Positions 2,693 to 32,102 of a stretch of 34,665 bases of DNA are shown piece by piece; the first letter of the stretch is position 1; each line of letters opens with the position of its first letter. The stretch comes from a virus. The notes under the pieces are model-generated. The model saw nothing but the letters and a program-made list of their open reading frames with translations. It had not been told where the DNA came from and did not search any database. The translations under genes and the position numbers were made by a program. The stretch lies in the IMG/VR virus record IMGVR_UViG_3300046777_001145, positions 1 to 34,665 of that record; one strand, given 5' to 3'.

Positions 2693-3212
2693 CCATTGCT
2701 CTTTTTATGTCCTTTACAATCTGCCTGGCGTTTGATAGAAACGCAGGATACAAAAATGGCTGCGGCCTTATGCCCTCTTTCATGATTTTCCGCGCGATCA
2801 GATAAGCATGATTCTTTGAACCCTTGCCCTTTTCGATATAACCCTTTTTCAGCCCCCATTCATGTATGGCCTTGACCATGCCCTTAAAATTGCCTTTTTT
2901 TGGTCGCGCTTTGACCGCTGCCGCAATGTCTCGAAGATCTGCGGGTATCGTTGTTTTTCCCCTCGTCCCAAACTCAATATAAGGCGCATGATACGCATTT
3001 GCTGCCACCTCCCAGCGCAGATGTCCGACCTTTGCGTGTTGGATGCTTTGCCGAATGCCGGACAAGTAAATGGGTGCCCGCTTTTTTGCGTCTCCCTCTA
3101 TCTTTATCACCCCCGCCTGCAGCGCAATGTCAATCTCCTCCGTCAGTTCGTTCTCCACGTCCCGTAATTGGTTGAGCGCCTTTTGCACCCCGACCAATTT
3201 GAAATTAATCAT
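2676..3212 (-). CDS. HK97 gp10-like neck/tail completion protein
   Basis: A 178-residue basic protein (MINFKLVGVQKALNQLRDVE). It has the HK97-gp10 family signature: an N-terminal helix with the pattern of that family, a segment with APIYLSGIRQSI, then AYHAPYIEFGTRGK (the Y-x-x-Y-x-E-x-G-T motif, about residues 73-86), and a C-terminal QPFLYPAF segment near residue 150. An insert of about 50 residues (KARPKKGNFKGMVKAIHEWG) between the two motifs occurs in many members. It sits between the connector and the tail terminator; start overlaps the upstream stop by 4 nt. Confidence 0.85.
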   Translation of the reverse strand: MINFKLVGVQKALNQLRDVENELTEEIDIALQAGVIKIEGDAKKRAPIYLSGIRQSIQHAKVGHLRWEVAANAYHAPYIEFGTRGKTTIPADLRDIAAAVKARPKKGNFKGMVKAIHEWGLKKGYIEKGKGSKNHAYLIARKIMKEGIRPQPFLYPAFLSNARQIVKDIKRAMDEKSG

Positions 3213-3712
3213 ATCACGATCCTTTTATACCATATGCTTGCCAGCTCCGGGAAACTGGTCAGGCTGGCCGTCTCATTGCTTAACTCGATGCCCCTGTTCT
3301 GATATGACCATGCGACAATTCTTTTCAGGTCGTTAAGGATATCATCCGGCACCGTTGTGTACCCGCACTGGTAAAGTATCTCATGCACGCCTGGCGAATA
3401 CACCTCAATGCTGTCCCCGTATTGCTTGTATGTCACGCAATCACCCTCATTTGTAACGGACAAAATCCCAGTCACGGGGCCGGGCAATGTGTAAAGGTCC
3501 ATTGGTGCCATGTCCACGGTCAGCTTGATGGTCTTTTTGCCAAGTTGCAGGCCCGTATAATTCTCCAGCCAAAGGCGGGCGTTTTTGCATAGTGACGCGA
3601 TTAATGCGTCATCATCGCTGAATGATATTTTCATCGCCGCCTTCGCCGCCGCGGTCGTCAGCGGTTCGGTCGAAAGGTCTGTCTGAATTTCTTTTGCTAT
3701 CAATAAATTCAT
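3209..3712 (-). CDS. Head-tail connector (gp6-like)
   Basis: A 167-residue protein (MNLLIAKEIQTDLSTEPLTT). Residues about 15-60 show the gp6-like connector pattern: EPLTTAAAKAAMKISFSDDD, followed by LIASLCKNARLWLENYTGLQL, which is the conserved pair of helices with the family-typical ENYTG. The rest is beta-rich and ends with a helix (LKRIVAWSYQNRG). This ring protein binds the portal and leads to the tail. It overlaps the GT4 glycosyltransferase gene by 4 nt, so the connector is now transcribed behind the accessory island rather than right behind the capsid gene. Confidence 0.85.
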   Translation of the reverse strand: MNLLIAKEIQTDLSTEPLTTAAAKAAMKISFSDDDALIASLCKNARLWLENYTGLQLGKKTIKLTVDMAPMDLYTLPGPVTGILSVTNEGDCVTYKQYGDSIEVYSPGVHEILYQCGYTTVPDDILNDLKRIVAWSYQNRGIELSNETASLTSFPELASIWYKRIVI

Positions 3713-4695
3713 CGGTATTCTTTCTGTGCTTTGTAAATGAAATCCTCGATTTTTTGCAGTCCCCCCAATGGGTCGAGCTCGATGGCCCGCTCCTTTGCTT
3801 TCTTTGATGCTGCGGAGTATGCTTTTCTTTCATCGAGCTTTTTTATCGCCTTTACCCAGTCCTCTACCTTGTCCCGGTCCTGTATATAAATCCCCGCTTC
3901 GCCACAATTTTCAAGCAGCCCCGGCGTGCTCGAGCATATCACCGGGATCCCGCTCGCCATCGCCTCCGTCGCAGTCCGTCCCCAGCTTTCGTATTTGCTC
4001 GGCATTATCAGGATGCGTGTCTTTTCATAGACTTTCCTGATGTCCTCCTGCTTTTCCCACACCTCGACATTCGGCGGCTGGTCGATGTGCTGCCCTATCG
4101 AGGCGGGCTCGGAATACGATCCTTTAACCCCAATGAATTTTTTATCCGGCATTGCCTTTGCAATCTCTCGCAAAATATGCCCGCCCTTGTTATGGTCGAG
4201 ATTAATGAGCGTAATATACTCACTTTTGGCCGGGTCAGGGTTGCAGTTGTACACACGATAATCACATGCCGGAGGTACAACGATTGAATCGTGCCTATAA
4301 TTTAGTTTTTTGGCTGCCCATTCCGAATTATAAACTATGTACTGCGGCTTTTCCGCATCGACGATACAGTCGTATTTGTGCGTGTTGTGAATGAGATGCA
4401 CGACGGGCAGCTTGAATATTTTTGCCGTGCCTATCGTCCACTCGCTGTAATCCAAATGTGTGAACACAACGTCCGACGCATTGAACAAGTTGGTGATGAA
4501 TGTCGGGTCTGACGGGAACACATCAATGCCGTCATAGATGTAATGCTCCGTGATCTTGTAATGATTTGCCTGATGCAGCAGGACCTTAATAGTGTGCCCT
4601 TTGCCTGAAAGATACTTGTTAATGGCATGGAGCATAAACTCCGCGCCGCATAGATGCTTAGGCGGGTAAAGATGGACCGAGCAAAGTATGTTCAT
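3709..4695 (-). CDS. Glycosyltransferase family 4 (GT-B fold)
   Basis: A 328-residue enzyme (MNILCSVHLYPPKHLCGAE). The N-terminal half carries the acceptor-side GT4 hallmark YPPKHLCGAEFMLHAI (about 10-25); the C-terminal half has the donor-binding site PSKYESWGRTATEAMASGIP (about 231-250), the E-x7-E element of GT4, followed by VICSSTPGLLENCG. It likely moves a sugar from a nucleotide-sugar donor to an unknown acceptor in the cytoplasm. No signal peptide or membrane segment. Last gene of the island; overlaps the DUF3310 gene and the connector gene. The acceptor (virion protein, LPS or DNA) cannot be told from sequence. Confidence 0.9.
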   Translation of the reverse strand: MNILCSVHLYPPKHLCGAEFMLHAINKYLSGKGHTIKVLLHQANHYKITEHYIYDGIDVFPSDPTFITNLFNASDVVFTHLDYSEWTIGTAKIFKLPVVHLIHNTHKYDCIVDAEKPQYIVYNSEWAAKKLNYRHDSIVVPPACDYRVYNCNPDPAKSEYITLINLDHNKGGHILREIAKAMPDKKFIGVKGSYSEPASIGQHIDQPPNVEVWEKQEDIRKVYEKTRILIMPSKYESWGRTATEAMASGIPVICSSTPGLLENCGEAGIYIQDRDKVEDWVKAIKKLDERKAYSAASKKAKERAIELDPLGGLQKIEDFIYKAQKEYR

Positions 4696-4897
4696 GGTAT
4701 TCGAGTTCGATTAATATATCAAGATAATGCCGCGCTTTTTTCAAGTCCTCAAGTCCATTCTTAAACTTATGGCGCATGATGTACTTTATGATGTTCCCCT
4801 CGATGTATGGCAGCCCGTTGGCATGAATAAATTCAATCGGTTGGATCTTCCATTGCTTGTAATGCTGACCGCCCTCCTGCGTCTCTAACGCGCTCAT
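4658..4897 (-). CDS. DUF3310 family protein
   Basis: The 79-residue product from ATG 4897 (MSALETQEGGQHYKQWKIQP) overlaps the stop of the fucosyltransferase gene in an ATGA, which decides this start over upstream in-frame candidates. GGQHYKQW followed by IQPIEFIHANGLPYIEGNIIKYIMRH and KARHYLDILIE is the DUF3310 pattern, a small helical family common in phages and described in some phages as a nucleotide-kinase-like or DNA metabolism protein; its real role is unsettled. It is out of place here, between two glycosyltransferases, and overlaps the next gene by 38 nt. Confidence 0.85.
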   Translation of the reverse strand: MSALETQEGGQHYKQWKIQPIEFIHANGLPYIEGNIIKYIMRHKFKNGLEDLKKARHYLDILIELEYHEHTLLGPSLPA

Positions 4898-5637
4898 ACG
4901 ACTATCCATTTGTCTGGATAAATGTCTTTGGTCTCCAAATGCGCCGCTGCGGGCCCGAACCATTGGCGAGGCGCGACCACTTGCCCGCCTGCCAGCCATG
5001 CAGCCCACCATGAGAATGTACTATTAGCGATGATGTGGTTAGCGCATTTTTTCATCAACCGAAAATCCTCATAAGTCGTTCCGTTCTGAAAAACATCATG
5101 CCCGCCCATAAACTGCCCCAGGATCTCCTTTGCCTTGACGATATCATCCGAAAAAATCATGTAGGGCCCCTTTAGGTGCTTCATCGCCTCGGCATAGTAC
5201 CATTTGCTGCAAATAGGGTGATACTCGCCTCCATAATCCCCGCACCTGATATGTACAGCCGTGTATGGCAGTGGCTCGCTCTCGTCCTTCAATGTGAACA
5301 GGCGGCGGATATAGTCCGCGCAGTGAATAAAATACTTTTCGCTTTGCATGTGCCCGACATATGACCACCCATCCGGATGATTCAATCCTTGCCAGCCCCA
5401 GGCAATGTGGTAATCGGCCATGTCTTTGTCAAGTCGTTTAATAGTTTCCCAATACGGAAACCACCGTCCGACATTGATATCTTCCTTACTCCCGAACCGC
5501 GCTGCTGCGTCATGGTTCACCCATTGCGGAAAAGCATAGTCGTATCCGTTCGCCTTTGCGATCCCGATCGTGCTGGCCACTTGAAAGAGCTGATTTGCAA
5601 AACGGCCGTATCGTCCAAGGTTGGCGAATGTTACCAT
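4894..5637 (-). CDS. Alpha-1,2-fucosyltransferase-like glycosyltransferase (GT11)
   Basis: A 247-residue protein (MVTFANLGRYGRFANQLFQ). GT11 motifs in order: GRFANQLFQ (11-19, acceptor-end motif of the family), the donor-binding HIRCGDY (129-135; usual H-x-R-R-x-D-Y with Cys in place of the second Arg), and NSTFSWWAAWL (205-215). GT11 enzymes transfer fucose from GDP-fucose in alpha-1,2 linkage. It is shorter than most family members (about 280-300). It starts 7 nt inside the methyltransferase gene and ends in an ATGA with DUF3310. GDP-fucose would have to come from the host since no synthesis genes are present. Confidence 0.85.
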   Translation of the reverse strand: MVTFANLGRYGRFANQLFQVASTIGIAKANGYDYAFPQWVNHDAAARFGSKEDINVGRWFPYWETIKRLDKDMADYHIAWGWQGLNHPDGWSYVGHMQSEKYFIHCADYIRRLFTLKDESEPLPYTAVHIRCGDYGGEYHPICSKWYYAEAMKHLKGPYMIFSDDIVKAKEILGQFMGGHDVFQNGTTYEDFRLMKKCANHIIANSTFSWWAAWLAGGQVVAPRQWFGPAAAHLETKDIYPDKWIVV

Positions 5638-6239
5638 AACACTAACTGACTTTTATAATCTTTATACCTTTTTTCCTGTGCTTGCCAATAATCATAATCC
5701 AATTCATACCCAGTAAATTCCATATTGTGCTTGTCGGCTGCAATCCGCGAAGACCCACTCCCTACATGTGTATCCAATATTTTCATCCCTGGTTCCGCGT
5801 AGTTAGTAAAAATCCAGTCGTAAAGTTTTACAGGTTTTTGCGTTGGGTGTATCCTATCAGGTTGATTTGGAGATGACTTATAAATTCTAGTACCTCCATA
5901 ATTTACCCAAGCATACTCACACTCCGCAAAGTCTCTTCCATACATTGTTTCGCCTTTGTCCCATATTGCAAAATATTGGCTTTGTGGCAAAGGAAAATAA
6001 TTACCGCCCCAAATTATTTGATTTTTAGATACTCTAAATAATATATCAAAATACATTTGATTAGGTATATTATTATCCCAATTTTTATTTTTATCAAAAG
6101 TTGATCTTTTTCGCCCGCCCATATTCATACCGCATACATCTATCCCATACGGCGGATCCACAACGGCTAAATCGAAATAATTATCCGGATATTCAGCCAT
6201 GCCGATCATGCAGTCCATATTATGCACAATGTTTACCAT
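5631..6239 (-). CDS. DNA methyltransferase (N6-adenine/N4-cytosine class, beta order)
   Basis: A 202-residue protein (MVNIVHNMDCMIGMAEYPDN). DPPYGID at 28-34 is catalytic motif IV; HPTQKP (131-136) and DTHVGSGSS (156-164, SAM-binding motif I) follow, so motif IV precedes motif I as in beta-class enzymes. DPPY fits adenine-N6 or cytosine-N4 methylation; the base cannot be fixed from this alone. No restriction endonuclease partner is nearby, so it is an orphan enzyme, perhaps for restriction evasion. The gene is visibly richer in A and T than its neighbours, suggesting separate acquisition, yet it overlaps both flanking glycosyltransferase genes by 7 nt. Confidence 0.9.
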   Translation of the reverse strand: MVNIVHNMDCMIGMAEYPDNYFDLAVVDPPYGIDVCGMNMGGRKRSTFDKNKNWDNNIPNQMYFDILFRVSKNQIIWGGNYFPLPQSQYFAIWDKGETMYGRDFAECEYAWVNYGGTRIYKSSPNQPDRIHPTQKPVKLYDWIFTNYAEPGMKILDTHVGSGSSRIAADKHNMEFTGYELDYDYWQAQEKRYKDYKSQLVLW

Positions 6240-6922
6240 TCCTCATTCCTTTTCCTATGATGGTGAAAGATGACCGGGTATGTGTCCATGTATGTACCCT
6301 TGTCGTAAATAAATGCCCCGTCGTTATACATCGCTGGCCACCAGTGTAATTTCAATCCATGCCATTGTTGTAAACAGGTGAGGATGGCCTGATCGTGCCT
6401 GTGCTCCTGAAACTCCGGGAACTGGTCCACCTTTAGCACATCATTGATAAAGTTTGGCATCTGTGACCATAACAGCCACTCGCGCACAAAGTTACGCGAG
6501 AACTTTGTCGCTTTGATGACGATGGCCGACGCCTGCGCCTGCAATTTGTCCAGGGCGAACATGCGAACGTACACCTCGCGCTTGCACCAGTGGACATGAC
6601 GGTAATGGTTGCCGAAAATCATGATGTCCTGGTCCATTGCGTCAACGAGGTGTTGAATATTATCTACGACTTCGACCCCTGCGTCGATATAAAGCAACAC
6701 ATCATTCTCATCCATGTTGGAAAGGCACTGATCGATGATGTACGGTTTCCATAGCCAGTATCCCGCTCCGCGAGGATGGTTCAACGTGTCAAAGTTTTGC
6801 AGATAGAACTCCGATGATATTTCGGCATGGATCGGCGTCGCCCCGAACTTCTGCGCGGACCTTAATGCAAGATCCCTGCTTCTGCTCATGTTATCGCTCG
6901 CGTATGTCGTGACGTATATCAT
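6233..6922 (-). CDS. Glycosyltransferase, GT-A type
   Basis: A 229-residue protein (MIYVTTYASDNMSRSRDLAL). PRGAGYWLWKP at 50-60 and LLYIDAGVE at 76-84 are the recognisable features: the first is typical of a bacterial GT-A family acting in polysaccharide synthesis, the second stands in the place of the metal-binding DxD motif (here D80-A-G). The end of the protein has clustered His residues (VIFHHHRKRNEEW). No membrane segment. It overlaps the preceding GT25 gene by 4 nt and the methyltransferase by 7 nt. Sugar and acceptor unknown. Confidence 0.75.
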   Translation of the reverse strand: MIYVTTYASDNMSRSRDLALRSAQKFGATPIHAEISSEFYLQNFDTLNHPRGAGYWLWKPYIIDQCLSNMDENDVLLYIDAGVEVVDNIQHLVDAMDQDIMIFGNHYRHVHWCKREVYVRMFALDKLQAQASAIVIKATKFSRNFVREWLLWSQMPNFINDVLKVDQFPEFQEHRHDQAILTCLQQWHGLKLHWWPAMYNDGAFIYDKGTYMDTYPVIFHHHRKRNEEW

Positions 6923-7530
6923 ATCAATTCACGAAGATAATCTTCAGACGCTGTAAATGTATCGGTATAATCGACATTCCTATCCCAAAGGTCCGAGCGG
7001 GTCGGACGCTGGAAAGACAAAAACGGGTATGTCACAAATGCGCTATAAAATGGCAATATAGTGTCAGAAAGAAAAGTGTCGTACATGATGCCCTCCTGAT
7101 ACATCTCAATGATGCTGGCGGCCATGTCGGCAGTGTACGCGACGGCGTGCGTAGTATATGCGGCCGTGACGCGGAAAATGTTATCAGTGACTTTTGTCGG
7201 CGCCGGATGATCCGGGTATGGTCTTAGGTTCGCGCCGAAATAAATGATGTCCCATCCTTTGGGCATCTCCGCCATGATCTCATCTAGCCTGTCCATGTGC
7301 CTAAATGTGGCGTCATCTTCAAACAGGATGGCGGTCTCTTTGCCGCTTTCTACAAAGTCCCGCAGCATAGCGATCTGGGACTTGTTAAAACTTGCATGCG
7401 GACTTTCGTCCTCTATGGCATAAAACCATTTGAAACTAAAATTCGCCCCCTGCTCAAATAGGTAACGGCGATCCACCCTGGCGCGTTGCGTCAAGACGGC
7501 AATGTGATCAAAATGGTCGTTAAAGTTCAT
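6919..7530 (-). CDS. Glycosyltransferase family 25
   Basis: A 203-residue protein (MNFNDHFDHIAVLTQRARVD). GT25 features: the N-terminal strand with the R-x-x-R segment, FYAIED (36-41), LRDFVESGKETAILFEDDA (56-74) holding the EDD metal-binding motif at 71-73, and KGWDIIYFGA (91-100). GT25 enzymes add galactose or glucose to LPS cores and, in eukaryotes, to collagen. First gene of the island; its ATG is only about 14 nt beyond the terminator-like hairpin that follows the capsid gene, leaving no room for a promoter between them. Confidence 0.85.
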   Translation of the reverse strand: MNFNDHFDHIAVLTQRARVDRRYLFEQGANFSFKWFYAIEDESPHASFNKSQIAMLRDFVESGKETAILFEDDATFRHMDRLDEIMAEMPKGWDIIYFGANLRPYPDHPAPTKVTDNIFRVTAAYTTHAVAYTADMAASIIEMYQEGIMYDTFLSDTILPFYSAFVTYPFLSFQRPTRSDLWDRNVDYTDTFTASEDYLRELI

Positions 7531-7543
7531 GGTTTGCGAAATG

Positions 7544-7580
7544 AAAAAAGGGAGCCGCCCGGCGCGACCCCCCTTTTTTT
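7544..7580 (-). terminator. Rho-independent terminator (possibly bidirectional) after the capsid gene
   Basis: Downstream of the capsid stop, the minus strand reads AAAAAAAGGGGGG then CGCC-rich loop then GGCTCCCTTTTTT. The arms pair A6-GGG with CCC-T6 and continue inward with a G bulge (GTCGC with GCGGC). The 3' T6 makes it a terminator for leftward transcription. All connector, tail and island genes lie beyond it, so it probably acts as a partial terminator that lowers their level relative to capsid. Confidence 0.8.
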
Positions 7581-7584
7581 AGAA

Positions 7585-8733
7585 TTATGCAGATGTACCG
7601 GTCGTGCCGTACACAGCAGCCTTCGGCTGGAACGAGAGGAGCTCGATCCGGGCCTCGGCGCGGTAGGTGACGAGGTTCTTGATGAAGTCGCTCTGATCAA
7701 ACTCGGTGCTGCGAACTTGCAGGCCGGAAGCCTGTGCAGTTGCAAATGCATCGGTGTTCAGAACGTAGAACCTGCTTCCAGTTACCTGGCTGTGCGGAAC
7801 AACAGGAATACCATTAATGCGGATACGGCCGTCGGCATCTACTGCAACGGATGCAGGTACGCCAAAGTTTGACGGCTTTGTCAGCAGCAGGGTGCTCCAT
7901 GCGGCCCATGTGGTCAGGATCAGGTTCGGCATGCCGAGACCCAGGTCGCCATGCTGCGCTACACCGGCGATCATCTTCGAAACGGTCAGCGTCTCGGAGG
8001 TTGACAGCGCGGTGCTGTTGGTGGCGATGGTGTTCAGGTACCTTGTATTGACAGCCCTATTCCAGTCCTCAATGAGGGACTGCGAAAGGTAGGACTGGAG
8101 GAAAGGCAGATCCTGGAGCATCTGACGGGACACTTTCACGTAACCAGCGATAAAGGGAACGCTCACGTTCACCATTGTCACATCGTAGTCGATCTGTGCC
8201 TTGTCATTGCCTTCGGTCTGTGCGCCGAAAGATCCTTCACCGACAGGGCTGTTGCCGCGGGGGAAAGTCACGTTACCGGTAGCGGTCGGAACAATCCGGA
8301 ATACATCGTAAAGGTGCGGATTGTAGAACGACCTCATGATCGGGTTCGGAACGTAACTGATCTGGCTGGTGCCGGTCAGGTTGTCGGTCAGGTTCATCGT
8401 GCCGACGATTTTCATCGCGGAGAATGCCTGCTCGGACTTCATCTTCTCGTGATTTTCAGCCACGATCTCGTTAACAGCGTTCTTAAGGTAGTCGCTGTTG
8501 GTCCATCCTGCCTTTTCCACCTGTGCGGCTTTAAGCTTGCCGTTTGAAGCCACAAGGCTGTCCACCTTTGCTTTCAGTTCGGCGATGCTCTCGCCTTTCT
8601 TTGCGGCATCTTCGTTAAGTTGTGCAACGTCTGCAGCGACCTTGCTGTCAAGTCGAGCTACCTCTGCGGTGAGCTCCTCTTTGTGGCCCTTGAGTTTCGG
8701 GTCAAGTGCCTCCATGATGTCTTTAACTTCCAT
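7585..8733 (-). CDS. Major capsid protein (HK97 fold)
   Basis: A 382-residue protein (MEVKDIMEALDPKLKGHKEE). Residues 1-75 form a charged coiled coil (delta/scaffold-like domain) with many Lys, Glu and Ala, expected to be removed by the prohead protease. From about residue 110 the sequence matches the HK97 capsid family: a loop with NPIMRSFYNPHLYDVFRIV, then VTFPRGNS, QIDYDVTMVNVSVPFIAGYVKVSRQ (N-arm, E-loop and spine helix region), and FLQSYLSQSLIEDWNR. It follows the protease gene immediately and is itself followed by a strong hairpin. Start upstream is A/T-rich without Shine-Dalgarno. Confidence 0.93.
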   Translation of the reverse strand: MEVKDIMEALDPKLKGHKEELTAEVARLDSKVAADVAQLNEDAAKKGESIAELKAKVDSLVASNGKLKAAQVEKAGWTNSDYLKNAVNEIVAENHEKMKSEQAFSAMKIVGTMNLTDNLTGTSQISYVPNPIMRSFYNPHLYDVFRIVPTATGNVTFPRGNSPVGEGSFGAQTEGNDKAQIDYDVTMVNVSVPFIAGYVKVSRQMLQDLPFLQSYLSQSLIEDWNRAVNTRYLNTIATNSTALSTSETLTVSKMIAGVAQHGDLGLGMPNLILTTWAAWSTLLLTKPSNFGVPASVAVDADGRIRINGIPVVPHSQVTGSRFYVLNTDAFATAQASGLQVRSTEFDQSDFIKNLVTYRAEARIELLSFQPKAAVYGTTGTSA

Positions 8734-13492: not shown

Positions 13493-13535
13493 AATTAGTC
13501 AACATTGTCAACATGCAGCAACAATGTGGCTAATT
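13493..13535. repeat. Interrupted inverted repeat upstream of the terminase genes
   Basis: AATTAG and ACATTGT (13493-13508) are mirrored by ACAATGT and CTAATT (13521-13535) around a 12-nt loop; TCAACA is also repeated directly (13499-13504, 13508-13513). It fills the 50-nt gap between the DnaA-like gene and the small terminase. There is no T run, so it is not a terminator. It may be an operator or a small terminase binding site (cos/pac); a poor TAATTTG box lies close to the start codon on the minus strand. Confidence 0.55.
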
Positions 13536-13950
13536 AGTGGATTTCGATTTTTGGATAGGCTGCTTTGATGTGGTCAACCAGCTCGCTCTTATCGACATAC
13601 CCGGGCACCAGCATAGTGACGACCTTGTCAGTCTCCTCAAGTATCACGGTCATCCGTTCGTCACCCATGATGTCCTGCCAGCGCATCAGCGTGACGGTAT
13701 CGTTCACGGCGATCAGGTTGTTAATCGTTTCGAGCCCGTTGATGATCGTGCTGTGATCTTTTGTAAAAAGGTCCGCAATACGCACCAAAGTGTACCCGAA
13801 ATAATCTCTCATGATCTTCCAGGCGAATTGTCTGGCGAGGACATTGTCACGTTTCCGGCACTTGTGAAAAATGTCATCAACCTGACACATCTCGCTGACA
13901 ATTTCGACCACTGTTTTTTCGTTTTGTAACATGTTTATTTTTTTTATCAA
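13534..13950 (-). CDS. Stand-alone DnaA domain IV-like replication protein
   Basis: A 138-residue protein; ATG 13950 (MIKKINMLQNEKTVVEIVSE) or ATG 13932 are both possible starts. Residues about 30-80 match the DNA-binding domain IV of DnaA: KRDNVLARQFAWKIMRDYFGYTLVRIADLF followed by the signature DHSTIINGLETI (usual D-H-S/T-T-V/I-x-x-A/G). The AAA+ domains of DnaA are absent, so it would bind origin DNA without ATP-driven melting. It lies right next to an AT-rich repeat cluster and the primase-helicase gene, which suggests it is the origin-binding initiator or recruits the host machinery. Confidence 0.8.
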   Translation of the reverse strand: MIKKINMLQNEKTVVEIVSEMCQVDDIFHKCRKRDNVLARQFAWKIMRDYFGYTLVRIADLFTKDHSTIINGLETINNLIAVNDTVTLMRWQDIMGDERMTVILEETDKVVTMLVPGYVDKSELVDHIKAAYPKIEIH

Positions 13951-17356: not shown

Positions 17357-17387
17357 CCGTAATAAACCCAATTATGCAAAAAAACAG

Positions 17388-17456
17388 TGTCGGGAGCGGG
17401 ATTCGAACCCGCATCTCCCATACGGTTATGGGGCGTTATCTTTACGCTACCCCGAC
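17388..17456 (-). tRNA. tRNA-like gene, anticodon not assignable
   Basis: The 69-nt sequence folds as a cloverleaf: 7-bp acceptor GTCGGGG/TCCCGAC, T-A at 8-9, 4-bp D stem GCGT/ACGC, 5-bp anticodon stem CCCAT/ATGGG, and a textbook T arm GCGGG-TTCGAAT-CCCGC, then A as discriminator. No CCA is encoded. The D loop is AAAGATA, lacking the GG needed to dock with the T loop, and the anticodon loop is only 6 nt (AACCGT) with no U before a triplet. It may be a decayed or unusual tRNA, or a mimic. Located in the early region between small genes. Confidence 0.65.
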
Positions 17457-25748: not shown

Positions 25749-28253
25749 TTAAGCAAGTAACCCGTTATTGCGAAGTGCTTTAACTATTTGATTCAAAGTG
25801 TAGCCATCAAAAGTTGATGCATCGTTAACTGCCGTACCTGTATTCGCTGCGAATGTTGCCGCTGCCACTCCTGTTGTTTGCTGATATAGTTTAATCACCG
25901 CACCGCCTTCCGTTCTGACATGAAGTGCAGCATTACCAGCAGTTATATCATTCGCATATATCTGCACCACATCGGTCGGTGATGTTGTCGGTGCCGTTCC
26001 GTTTACGATACCGATAACCCTTGCTGCTGATGTACCAAACGTTGTAGTACCCACCCCCACATTACCACTACTTGTAGCAAAATACGCATCCGTTGTGTTG
26101 CGGAGGGTGCCGGAGATGTCTAACTTGTAAGAATTATTATTTGTTCCAATAGAAACGGCACCACCCGTGAAAAATCGTGTTATCGGAGTTGAGCCTGTCG
26201 TGGTTGAAAATATCGTAAAATCATTGGCACCGATGTTCAATGTTCCTAAGCCTTGATACCCCTGTGAATTATCGGTAGTGCCGAACATCGTTAACGCTAA
26301 CGAACCGCTATTGCTGCGAATGTTAAAACCAGCATTTTGGGAAGCTGTTGCATTGCGTAGCGCAAATGTCGCCGCTGCTGCATTGTGATATATGCTAAAC
26401 TCGCTTTGCGGACTCGCTGCCTGATCTCCGAAAGAAAATCCACCAACAACGCTAAGTTTTTTTTGTGGACTTGTGGTGCCAATGCCTAAACTACCTGAGG
26501 AATCAAATCTTGCCCACTCGGTGGTATTCCCGGTAAACAATAAACTTCCACCACTTGCAACATCTATTGCTAACCATGTATATCCCGTTCCGTCAAATGG
26601 CGTTCTTATCCTTCCGGCCAAAACACCATATGCATTAATCGCTAATTGTCCCCCCGTTCCGTTTGTATCGAATAAAACTGACCCGGCGACATCTAACAAA
26701 TAATTAGTAGTAACACTTGTCTTACCAATTCCAACGCCTCCCGAACTCGTAGCAAAATATGCTGATGTTGTATTGCGAAGAGTGCCGGAGATGTCGAGGT
26801 TATAGGTGTTGTTAGTATTGCCGATGGAGACATTGCCGCCTGCGTTGATGCGTATCCTTTCCGTTCCATTTGTTCCGAATAACATCGCTTGGTTCTCGTA
26901 GTTCCATACGTAAGCAATGTTATTGGATATTTGTAACTGAAAACCATCATTTGTCAAAACTCCACTCGTATCATTTTGCAAAGCAAGTGTTGGTACATTC
27001 GTGCCGCCATACACACGCAAATAAGCGTTATTAATAACAGTTGTACCGATAGATACCCCTCCACTACTCGTAGCGAAATATGCTGATGTTGTGTTGCGAA
27101 GTGTACCGCTGACATCTAACCCATACGCAGGAGATGCGGTATTAATGCCCAGCCTGTTATTAGTCGCATCCCAAAAAAGATTATTACTTCCCGTTACCGT
27201 TGACGTTCCGCTGAAGTATGTCACTTGCCCACTTGTCCCCGTCCCTGTTACAGGGTTGGTAAGTGTTGCCTGTTTGCCATTAAGTTGTGTTTGAATGGCA
27301 CTCGTTACGCCGTCCAAATACCCGAACTCCGTATTGCTAACTACTCCCGTTCCTATCTTCGCAGCATCTATTCCCGTTGGTAAGTCCGCTGCCTGTATCG
27401 TACTATCCACCCATACCGTGCCGTTATAACGGAGATACTCGCCACTTACAGGCGTTGGTGCTGATACATTATGCAATTCGTCAAGTTCGTACCCGTTGTC
27501 AACCTTGACGTATATCTTTCCGTTATTTTGGTGTGCGTAGATTACAAACCCCAAGATGACCGTGTGAATGGGTGCTGACGGCTTGACATTGGTTATGACG
27601 CCCGATGTTGTGCCGGACAAGTATAACGTGTCACCATCTGCCCATGTCTCCCCTTGTAGGCTTCCCGTTGTGTTGATGTTTGCAATGGTTCCACTCGTGA
27701 CGATGAAACCTTCCTGATTGTTGCCAATATCTTCTGCGACAAGTCCAATAGTGTCCTTACTATTCGCATCATTATCCGCACGGGCAAGACTGACCTGTAA
27801 CCGCTGACCCTGTGCGCCTATTATTTTTACAGCACGGTATGCAGCACGAGTAAGGTTTCCCCCTGTGCCATTAACTGCTCTTAACACTTGCTTTTGACCG
27901 ATGGGTAGGTTAACACTTGCACCTTTGAGCATCAAGTCAAGGGTTCCCTCCGTGTCGTTCCACACCATACTTCCTGCCCCTGTTGGTGCGTTGGTCGGTG
28001 TCGTGTCAAACTCTATATTTCCCGTCAATAGACCGAACTCGCCTAAGTTGACGTCTTGTGTTGCGCCTGTGTAGGGCACACCCGCTACATCTGATGCCCA
28101 AGCGACATCATAATCGGTTGCGCTATTTTTCTTTAATACTTGATTGGCAGTACCACCGGGAGGGATCCCGACGGCATCGCTTATCGTGACAGTTATTTCG
28201 TCAGGCACGACCGACACCAGCACATCGCTTTCATTTACAGTTACATTGTTCAT
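25749..28253 (-). CDS. Large tail fibre/receptor-binding-type protein with repeats
   Basis: An 834-residue, Gly/Thr/Asn/Ser-rich protein. The first 70 residues (ESDVLVSVVPDEITVTISDA) include IPPGGTANQVLKKNSA, a frequent N-terminal phage fibre module. Then come three variants of the repeat LDVSGTLRNTTSAYFATSSG with GVSIGTT-type ends (about residues 378, 485, 710), interspersed with receptor-like variable stretches. The end (TVNDASTFDGYTLNQIVKAL) is the common capping motif of these fibres. It probably forms a trimeric beta-helical fibre binding the host. The DNA has matching direct repeats. Confidence 0.85.
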   Translation of the reverse strand: MNNVTVNESDVLVSVVPDEITVTISDAVGIPPGGTANQVLKKNSATDYDVAWASDVAGVPYTGATQDVNLGEFGLLTGNIEFDTTPTNAPTGAGSMVWNDTEGTLDLMLKGASVNLPIGQKQVLRAVNGTGGNLTRAAYRAVKIIGAQGQRLQVSLARADNDANSKDTIGLVAEDIGNNQEGFIVTSGTIANINTTGSLQGETWADGDTLYLSGTTSGVITNVKPSAPIHTVILGFVIYAHQNNGKIYVKVDNGYELDELHNVSAPTPVSGEYLRYNGTVWVDSTIQAADLPTGIDAAKIGTGVVSNTEFGYLDGVTSAIQTQLNGKQATLTNPVTGTGTSGQVTYFSGTSTVTGSNNLFWDATNNRLGINTASPAYGLDVSGTLRNTTSAYFATSSGGVSIGTTVINNAYLRVYGGTNVPTLALQNDTSGVLTNDGFQLQISNNIAYVWNYENQAMLFGTNGTERIRINAGGNVSIGNTNNTYNLDISGTLRNTTSAYFATSSGGVGIGKTSVTTNYLLDVAGSVLFDTNGTGGQLAINAYGVLAGRIRTPFDGTGYTWLAIDVASGGSLLFTGNTTEWARFDSSGSLGIGTTSPQKKLSVVGGFSFGDQAASPQSEFSIYHNAAAATFALRNATASQNAGFNIRSNSGSLALTMFGTTDNSQGYQGLGTLNIGANDFTIFSTTTGSTPITRFFTGGAVSIGTNNNSYKLDISGTLRNTTDAYFATSSGNVGVGTTTFGTSAARVIGIVNGTAPTTSPTDVVQIYANDITAGNAALHVRTEGGAVIKLYQQTTGVAAATFAANTGTAVNDASTFDGYTLNQIVKALRNNGLLA
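26065..27120. repeat. Three ~56-60-bp direct DNA repeats inside the fibre gene
   Basis: Copies at 26065-26123, 26745-26800 and 27061-27120 share GTAGC-AAATA-GC then TTGT-TTGCG-AG-GT-CC and end ATGTC-A or ACATC. They encode the LDxSGTLRNTTxAYFATSS units. Third-codon variation shows age, yet similarity is high enough for recombination between copies, a means of shortening or reshuffling the fibre. Confidence 0.75.
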
Positions 28254-30608: not shown

Positions 30609-31435
30609 TTGCTAAACACTTTTATAATTTCCCCAATTCCTAAATCTGCATCGAAATATATCTTCTGCTCTGCTTCGCTTACGACACACGTATTGTCTGC
30701 CACATTCGCCGCGCTTGATACTCCGCTGATGTCTGTCGTATCTTCCAGCGTTTCGGCGTATGTTATGCCTGTCAGCGGTTCAAAATTATAAGATTGAACG
30801 CTGCCGCTGATTGGCGTTAAATTCCCATAAGCATAAGAGATAGATATGGCCGGCAATGTCGGCGCGGAGGTTGTGGAACTATCAGAATAGATGATATATT
30901 TCACATTGTCAATGGTGCAGAAATATCCGCTTTTCCATTTTTGTTGACCAATGTAAATTTTTAAATCCTTTGCCGGGTCGCTTATCTCCACTTGCAGGCG
31001 GTTAGTCGATACATTTGTGACTGTTGTCGTGAACCCGCTCCATGTCGCTGCGTTGATAGCACTTACAAGCCCGTTCCTGACATCATTGGCGTCATCCCCC
31101 GCAATGACTGTATATTTTGCAATCACGTTGTTATCGTAAAATGAATATGTCCGGCCGACAGTCACCGTGCTGCCAATTTCGTACACCGTGATGCGTGTCG
31201 CCCCTACGCTTTGGGTGATGATGTTAATATACTCGTTTGCGCTCAAGCTTGTACGCTTGACCCCGTACCATTGGTATTCATACACATCCACCTCCAGCGT
31301 GCCAGCCTGAAAATTACTACTATGCTTGACTCCTATCCCGTTACGGTCAATGATGACAACATCTGCCGCCACTATACCAGGTGCGGCAATCCACGGGTTA
31401 ACAGCATCATTAATATATGTCCGGCTATGATACAT
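30605..31435 (-). CDS. Tail fibre/tip protein with repeated RNGIG modules
   Basis: A 276-residue beta-rich protein (MYHSRTYINDAVNPWIAAPG). The N-terminal stretch AADVVIIDRNGIGVK and LSANEYINIITQS resemble the C-terminal part of the neighbouring upstream protein (VDILDVRRNGIGLQ, LGADEYIKVIYVS). The C-terminus (IYFDADLGIGEIIKVFSK) looks like a third, weaker copy. The middle is unassigned. Likely part of the tail tip, with a signal-bearing fibre gene next. It overlaps its upstream neighbour by 11 nt. Confidence 0.6.
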   Translation of the reverse strand: MYHSRTYINDAVNPWIAAPGIVAADVVIIDRNGIGVKHSSNFQAGTLEVDVYEYQWYGVKRTSLSANEYINIITQSVGATRITVYEIGSTVTVGRTYSFYDNNVIAKYTVIAGDDANDVRNGLVSAINAATWSGFTTTVTNVSTNRLQVEISDPAKDLKIYIGQQKWKSGYFCTIDNVKYIIYSDSSTTSAPTLPAISISYAYGNLTPISGSVQSYNFEPLTGITYAETLEDTTDISGVSSAANVADNTCVVSEAEQKIYFDADLGIGEIIKVFSK

Positions 31436-32102
31436 AAATTACTTTGATGTATTCGTCAGCCCCTAACGCGAACCCGAACTCAAGCGACCCGGACCCACTT
31501 GTAAATTTCACCTGCGATCCCGTCGGCGTTCCGACGGTTATGACCTGCAGTCCTATGCCGTTACGGCGAACGTCCAATATATCCACACCGATAAGGACAG
31601 AATTACTGATAGTTGTCTCGCCACCAGTTGCTGTGAAATCATAACTATCTACGTCAGTGAGTGGCGCGCTGGTGCTTGTCTGCTCAAATGACGGGTCGCC
31701 GTTCATGGTCAGCTGAAAACTGAAATTGGAAAGCTGGCCGGCAGCCCCTGACAAATTAAGTTCGTCGATAAGGCAAGGCACCTCATAGGTCTTTGTATTG
31801 CCCTGCGGATCGGTGACGGTGTACTTCGTCAATATTATCGTCTGGCTGTTAAGATAGTCGAGCAAATCAAAAAATGAGTTTTTCCCGCTATCGGGCACGA
31901 CCTTAGTGATGCCTGTGCCGGAGATGGTGCCGGTGATGCGCCCATAGATATAACTGCGCCACTTGCCGGATGTATAAGGTGCCAGTTCGATCTTGTCGGA
32001 GGTCGTCGTGATGGATACATCGCGCGCGCATGCGAGCGGGTAGTAATTGCTACCCAGCTTCAGGAACAGCACAATGTTATCACCTTTTACCGCGTCTGCC
32101 AT
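31425..32102 (-). CDS. Second tail tube-like protein with C-terminal fibre module
   Basis: A 225-residue protein. Residues 1-135 (MADAVKGDNIVLFLKLGSNY) follow the TP901-1-like major tail protein pattern: G-D-N-I-V-L-F-L, an ACARDVSITTTSDKIEL strand pair, a basic WRSYIYGRITGTISG turn, and FSFQLTMNGDPSFEQ near the end. A C-terminal module of about 60 residues adds the RNGIG/ADEYIKVIY motif also present in the next protein. It starts at the tail-tip protein's stop (TAATG). It may form a tail-tip ring instead of the tube, since the canonical tube gene is at 1826-2266. Confidence 0.7.
   Translation of the reverse strand: MADAVKGDNIVLFLKLGSNYYPLACARDVSITTTSDKIELAPYTSGKWRSYIYGRITGTISGTGITKVVPDSGKNSFFDLLDYLNSQTIILTKYTVTDPQGNTKTYEVPCLIDELNLSGAAGQLSNFSFQLTMNGDPSFEQTSTSAPLTDVDSYDFTATGGETTISNSVLIGVDILDVRRNGIGLQVITVGTPTGSQVKFTSGSGSLEFGFALGADEYIKVIYVS

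Follow-up and report, generated by a model that had tools for sequence, protein, structure and literature searches.

Between the capsid gene and the head-tail connector gene of IMG/VR virus record IMGVR_UViG_3300046777_001145, whose complete 34,665 bases form the window analysed here, lies a cassette of six overlapping genes, four of which encode glycosyltransferases (GTs) that are soluble by prediction and sited in the head operon. As the best explanation, and with somewhat more confidence than doubt, we propose that this is a late-operon cytoplasmic cassette that would build a short glycan on a virion protein. The proposal draws on the families and folds of the enzymes, their intact motifs, purifying selection, the fixed position of the cassette, the overlaps between its genes and its co-inheritance with the head genes, while late expression, the virion acceptor, the order of the steps and the sugars are what we infer.

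Gene content of the cassette and enzyme families

The window carries an HK97-type head module on the minus strand in the order terminase, portal, MuF, prohead protease, capsid, cassette, connector, gp10-like protein, tail terminator and major tail protein, and the capsid, prohead protease and connector all pass the Pfam/PHROGs cut-offs. A check of open reading frames (ORFs) bore out the preliminary description of this DNA, which had placed six minus-strand ORFs at these positions, joined by overlaps of 4 to 38 nucleotides (nt), and the families it had named also held, by Pfam for GT4, GT11, the methyltransferase and DUF3310 and by profile or structure for GT25 and GT-A. Read from capsid to connector, the successive overlaps are 4, 7, 7, 4 and 38 nt, the GT4 and connector genes overlap by 4 nt, and a gap of 54 nt separates the capsid gene from the GT25 gene. 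The features are as follows.

6919..7530, minus strand: GT25-like glycosyltransferase, 203 amino acids, first cassette gene (profile and Foldseek, invariant EDD)
6233..6922, minus strand: GT-A-fold glycosyltransferase of an unnamed family, 229 amino acids (GT-A fold, invariant motifs)
5631..6239, minus strand: N6/N4 adenine/cytosine DNA methyltransferase, 202 amino acids, apparent late insert (PF01555, DPPYG, empty site in siblings)
4894..5637, minus strand: GT11 (fucosyltransferase-type) glycosyltransferase, 247 amino acids (PF01531, HxRxGDY)
4658..4897, minus strand: DUF3310 small protein, 79 amino acids, optional passenger (PF11753, 2.5e-15)
3709..4695, minus strand: GT4 glycosyltransferase, 328 amino acids, invariant core of the cassette (PF13692/PF00534, E236-x7-E244)
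7585..8733, minus strand: major capsid protein (HK97 type), upstream neighbour (PF05065, 5.7e-14)
7544..7580, minus strand: terminator-like hairpin between the capsid gene and the cassette (dG -21.9)
3209..3712, minus strand: gp6-like head-tail connector, downstream neighbour (PF05135, 2.6e-7)
5627..5637, minus strand: ATGGTAACATT copy at the GT11 start (comparison with the junction in sibling L009)
6228-6239: ATGGTAAACATT, the other bracket of the inserted methyltransferase (same comparison)

The GT4 protein matches PF13692 (9.7e-17, 62 bits against a cut-off of 27) and PF00534 (1.8e-15), and E236 and E244 of its E-x7-E motif are invariant among relatives, which places it in CAZy family GT4 (GT-B fold). 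The GT11 protein matches PF01531 (3.6e-19, 69.6 bits against a cut-off of 23.9) and phrog_2644 (3e-50), and in its HxRxGDY and NS--S motifs the residues H129, R131, G133, D134, Y135, N205, S206 and S209 are invariant among relatives. Based on this Pfam match and these motifs, we assign it to CAZy GT11, the fucosyltransferase-type family, with a putative alpha-1,2-fucosyl (GDP-Fuc) activity. The DNA methyltransferase belongs to the N6_N4_Mtase family (1.1e-10, 42.3 bits against a cut-off of 26.7), with DPPYG and S-adenosylmethionine (SAM) motifs, and the DUF3310 match likewise passes the Pfam cut-off.

The identities of the other two GTs need profile or structure evidence. As a single sequence, GT25 gave no Pfam GT25 model among matches at E up to 1; a profile of 15 relatives matches collagen galactosyltransferase COLGALT1 and mimivirus R655 (2e-6), the predicted structure (predicted local distance difference test, pLDDT, 95) aligns with COLGALT1 in Foldseek at template modelling (TM) scores of 0.68-0.73, and the EDD motif is invariant among relatives, so that the GT25 fold and its acidic motif are both present. 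The GT-A protein has no family match by sequence in Pfam, PHROGs or a PDB profile search (PDB sequence profiles gave no useful match for GT11 either). Its model (pLDDT 92.9) resembles LARGE1, LgtC and glycogenin in Foldseek (probability 1.00, TM 0.43-0.60), and besides this GT-A fold it has an acidic motif, YxD(A/S)GVE, which is invariant among relatives, as are WCK, QAS, EHR-DQ and WWPA. Distant homologues of this protein (28-37%) also occur in viral contigs of 22-143 kb (L127-L133).

A transmembrane segment is unlikely in all cassette proteins, the maximum hydrophobicity (KD19) of the GTs being at most 1.09, and the earlier picture of four soluble GTs lying between capsid and connector without membrane partners is therefore upheld.

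Conservation of the cassette within the head module

Relatives were collected with six queries (capsid, GT25, GT-A, GT4, protease and a distant capsid), each search returning at most 80 loci; these relatives are metagenome contigs, and their genes are simple ORF calls. Two sets were chosen by capsid or by protease only and not by the GTs, some contigs being common to both, and wherever the capsid-connector interval was intact GT4 was found, in 16/16 and 23/23 distinct contigs, respectively. This result contradicts the earlier view of the genes as an accessory island, as does the inheritance of GT4 together with the head genes. The four-GT set is also no new case, as had been thought, because the same set is found in many IMG/VR contigs, and the recurrence of the same order in dozens of independent contigs and metagenomes excludes a host-derived contig chimera, which the preliminary description had named as a possible refutation.

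When all query sets are pooled, GT4 is present in 65 of 72 distinct capsid-connector intervals, and in all 65 it is the last recognised cassette gene before the connector. Of 147 distinct GT4s, 135 belong to the family and have their next gene in view, and in 135/135 this gene is the connector; for another 11 the contig ends first, and the one remaining hit is from Streptomyces phage TurkishDelight. The commonest overlap between GT4 and connector in relatives is the 4 nt seen in the window (19/62), and one pattern scan found at least 592 viral stretches that encode GT4 relatives.

The make-up of the cassette ranges from a minimal methyltransferase plus GT4 up to GT25, GT-A, methyltransferase, GT11 and GT4, and the core order GT25-GTA-[X]-GT11-GT4 holds across capsids down to 26% identity. 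Slot X is usually occupied by a SAM methyltransferase, carried by 43 of the 65 relative cassettes, and these enzymes are of small-molecule type (Methyltransf_23/25, FkbM and an unassigned SAM-methyltransferase-like group). DUF3310 occurs in only two of the 65.

Relatives that lack the cassette, a case the preliminary description had asked about, do exist in the pooled set. The seven cassette-less intervals belong to Flavobacterium phage 11b, Cellulophaga phages phi10:1 and phi17:1, a contig (L214) of a Chitinophagaceae metagenome-assembled genome (MAG) and IMG/VR contigs L215, L218 and L227, and the unsplit order of the cultured Flavobacteriia phages among them confirms that the usual capsid-connector order is split in the window. 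On the capsid tree, which has long branches and an uncertain root, the cassette label needs at least two changes, compared with 6.8 for shuffled labels. Spearman correlations of distances are 0.85 for GT4 and portal, 0.87 for GT4 and protease, and 0.85 for capsid and portal. The distances of GT25 and GT-A track the head genes less closely than those of GT4, suggesting that the outer enzymes are exchanged more.

Ratios of nonsynonymous to synonymous substitution (dN/dS) against sibling contigs (dS 0.3-0.9) are 0.02-0.09 for the GTs (about 0.06 for GT25), 0.005-0.05 for terminase, portal, protease, capsid and connector, and 0.08-0.10 for gp10, values that rest on two effective comparisons, since the values for L002, L003 and L004 coincide wherever full-length genes are shared, as do those for L005 and L009. 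These ratios indicate strong purifying selection on the GT genes, and together with the invariant motifs and the recurring order they point to more than chance. Overall, these comparisons support the cassette as a long-kept part of the particle-building operon in this phage clade.

The DNA METHYLTRANSFERASE looks like a newcomer, the only gene of the cassette with the appearance of recent acquisition. Siblings L002, L003, L004 and L009, which have no DNA methyltransferase, show the exact empty site, with the GT-A stop directly overlapping the GT11 start, while the window carries about 602 nt extra at this junction, flanked by ATGGTAAACATT and ATGGTAACATT. The gene has 36.5% GC and 0.33 GC at third codon positions (GC3), compared with 48-51% GC and a GC3 of 0.57-0.66 in the neighbouring GT25, GT-A, GT11 and GT4 genes. 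A 75%-identical copy occupies the same slot in L013, which implies either repeated filling of the slot or loss of the gene from the siblings. In the window, this apparently foreign DNA methyltransferase takes up the usual methyltransferase slot and is probably an unrelated anti-restriction gene.

Expression, host and acceptor of the proposed glycan

The hairpin at 7580-7544 after the capsid gene has comparable counterparts in 40/65 cassette phages and 6/7 cassette-less phages, but in only 1/360 control windows. Where the cassette is missing, the hairpin is followed closely by the connector; in the window the cassette lies between the two, and from this layout it is probably read together with the connector but less strongly than the capsid.

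The host is probably a member of the Bacteroidota, since the nearest cultured capsids are mostly those of Cellulophaga and Flavobacterium phages and the Chitinophagaceae MAG contig encodes a terminase of 48% identity. A scan of a genome collection turned up no cassette-bearing prophage, its only hit being the Chitinophagaceae contig, which has a 30% capsid but lacks the cassette. Likewise, no close GT4 (E up to 1e-30) was detected in 395 genomes of the phylum of this MAG, nor any near DNA match to the window among phage records. In a genome of the host class (L334), a GT-A homologue sits beside a GDP-mannose dehydratase, an epimerase family gene and a flippase-type gene, suggesting that donors are available in such hosts and that the enzymes likely came from them.

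Based on these results, we hypothesize that a large clade of siphovirus-type phages, probably of Bacteroidota, has in its head operon a glycan-assembly cassette that would be expressed late. Read-through of the hairpin behind the capsid gene would yield soluble GTs along with the connector, host nucleotide sugars would serve as donors, and the glycan would be assembled in the cytoplasm on a virion protein, most likely of the capsid, neck or tail tube. The invariant GT4 would probably form the key linkage, whether priming or first; the glycan may then be extended by GT25 and GT-A, GT11 may attach a 6-deoxyhexose (for example fucose), and a SAM methyltransferase would supply the cap in many relatives.

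A virion acceptor is favoured by the position of the cassette, the gene overlaps, the co-inheritance, and the lack of lysogeny and membrane genes. No integrase or lysogeny gene was seen among the window proteins scanned and lysis genes are present, which argues against lysogenic conversion. Furthermore, both GT-A-fold models (GT25 and GT-A) resemble A064R, a capsid-glycan enzyme of chlorovirus PBCV-1. In the capsid itself, cassette phages share ten conserved serine/threonine columns. Of these, S168 (codon near window 8230-8232) is the only one with a different residue in each of the seven cassette-less phages first compared; it is S or T in nearly all cassette capsids and A, N, G or D in most cassette-less ones. 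S168 is a weak lead, either a candidate acceptor or a mere clade marker. Capsid C-termini have no Ser/Thr tail specific to cassette phages. A collagen-like acceptor for GT25 was also considered, but the window proteins contain no stretch of at least four G-X-Y repeats.

Several points weigh against a virion acceptor. The S168 pattern follows clade, with exceptions in both directions (L118, L231) in the wider set, and the fixed position of the cassette could reflect late dosage instead of a virion substrate. Cellular relatives of the GT-A family sit in Bacteroidia polysaccharide clusters with a flippase, in L334 also with GDP-fucose-pathway genes, making lipid-linked host glycans plausible acceptors. 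These clusters also support the main rival, which we consider rather unlikely though credible, namely that late in infection the cytoplasmic substrate of the GTs is host surface polysaccharide (lipopolysaccharide, LPS, core or O-unit intermediates), whose modification would keep progeny from re-adsorbing to debris or close infected cells to superinfection. Families GT4, GT11 and GT25 also include LPS enzymes, lipid-linked intermediates can be substrates of soluble GTs, and LPS modification was proposed as one role of the GT of Cellulophaga phage phi18:1 (PMC11946311). However, the cassette is confined to the capsid-connector interval in every case seen, is inherited with head genes and has no membrane partner, and the window has no lysogeny gene in view. 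Virion glycosylation, already put forward in the preliminary description, stands as the best reading, with the envelope as the less probable substrate.

It is improbable that an insertion-tolerant capsid-connector site has merely gathered enzymes for separate purposes, the GTs serving one target and the DNA methyltransferase and DUF3310 DNA protection and nucleotide metabolism. The clean late insertion of the methyltransferase, the rarity of DUF3310, and the small homing-endonuclease-like and unknown ORFs in some relatives fit such mixed cargo, but a GT4 that is never missing and a GT order conserved at such distant capsids are not expected from chance cargo. Finally, although phage GTs are well known for DNA glucosylation and a DNA methyltransferase adjoins the GT genes, glycosylation of modified bases of phage DNA, which the preliminary description had already called less likely, is very improbable, because no hydroxymethylase, base hydroxylase, TET/JBP-like, thymidylate-synthase-like or base-hypermodification kinase gene was found among the window proteins scanned (some small ORFs lying outside the scan), and siblings that retain the GTs lack the adjoining methyltransferase, a recent insert.

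Elsewhere in the window, a small protein with a DnaA C-terminal DNA-binding domain (13534-13950) adjoins the packaging genes, two separate proteins (1826-2266 and 31425-32102) match the major tail protein family phrog_1407, and a tRNA-like call at 17387-17456 has no readable anticodon. A large fibre-like protein (25749-28253) has a GC3 of 0.41 compared with about 0.6 elsewhere, which suggests an exchanged gene.

Comparison with known systems and implications

Serotype-converting gtr cassettes are phage-borne as well, and consist of membrane GTs with a flippase and a bactoprenol GT; unlike these, no protein of the present cassette has a strongly hydrophobic segment, and neither a membrane flippase nor a bactoprenol GT was found in it. 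Closer is chlorovirus PBCV-1, whose major capsid protein is glycosylated in the cytoplasm by virus-encoded GTs that have no transmembrane domains and include GT-A and GT4 enzymes as well as a predicted methyltransferase domain; fucose and a methylated cap are part of this glycan (PMC5408694). Both viruses encode soluble GTs including GT-A and GT4 types. PBCV-1, however, expresses its GTs early and produces GDP-fucose itself (PMC5408694), whereas no nucleotide-sugar genes were seen here, the genes are sited in the head operon, the window's own cassette has no glycan-type methyltransferase, and the virion glycan is a predicted one.

Mycobacteriophages are likewise tailed phages encoding GTs, with glycans reported on subunits of the capsid and tail tube (earlier work cited by PMC12619734 and PMC10877033); they infect other hosts, and the available portions of these two sources do not describe a fixed multi-GT and methyltransferase order at the capsid-connector junction. 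Among Cellulophaga phages, phi18:1 has a GT in its structural module (PMC11946311) and phi17:1 a methyltransferase and a GT within its head module, but the latter GT is of a TOD1-like family and lies in the MuF-to-protease slot, leaving a clean capsid-connector junction. TurkishDelight gp20 is also GT4-like (30.7% identity) and is encoded after the capsid and before tail genes; it differs in being a single long GT of another phage lineage with a membrane protein gene nearby.

In another phage lineage, L224 (5882-8234) carries a GT2-like protein, a TOD1-like GT, a SAM methyltransferase and an unknown protein between capsid and connector, apparently an independent occupation of the same slot. 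On bacterial contig L326 (4230-8238), possibly a prophage, a terminase is closely preceded by another phage-associated glycan set, made up of GTs, an FkbM-like protein, a GT-A homologue and a SAM methyltransferase. Considering L224, phi17:1 and L326, pairings of GTs of other families with methyltransferases recur in head regions.

The small fixed-order set is a source of compact soluble glycosyltransferases. A stronger version of the virion proposal, which we offer only tentatively, is that across a large clade of uncultivated phages GT4 is a fixed head-module gene modifying a capsid or neck protein in every virion as a constitutive assembly step, and that interchangeable GTs and methyltransferases determine the outer glycan type. 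If the virion proposal is right, the 'auxiliary' GT annotations of virome surveys would become structural-module genes, and a widespread environmental phage lineage would have sugar-coated particles by default, with consequences for virion persistence, surface binding and evasion of recognition.

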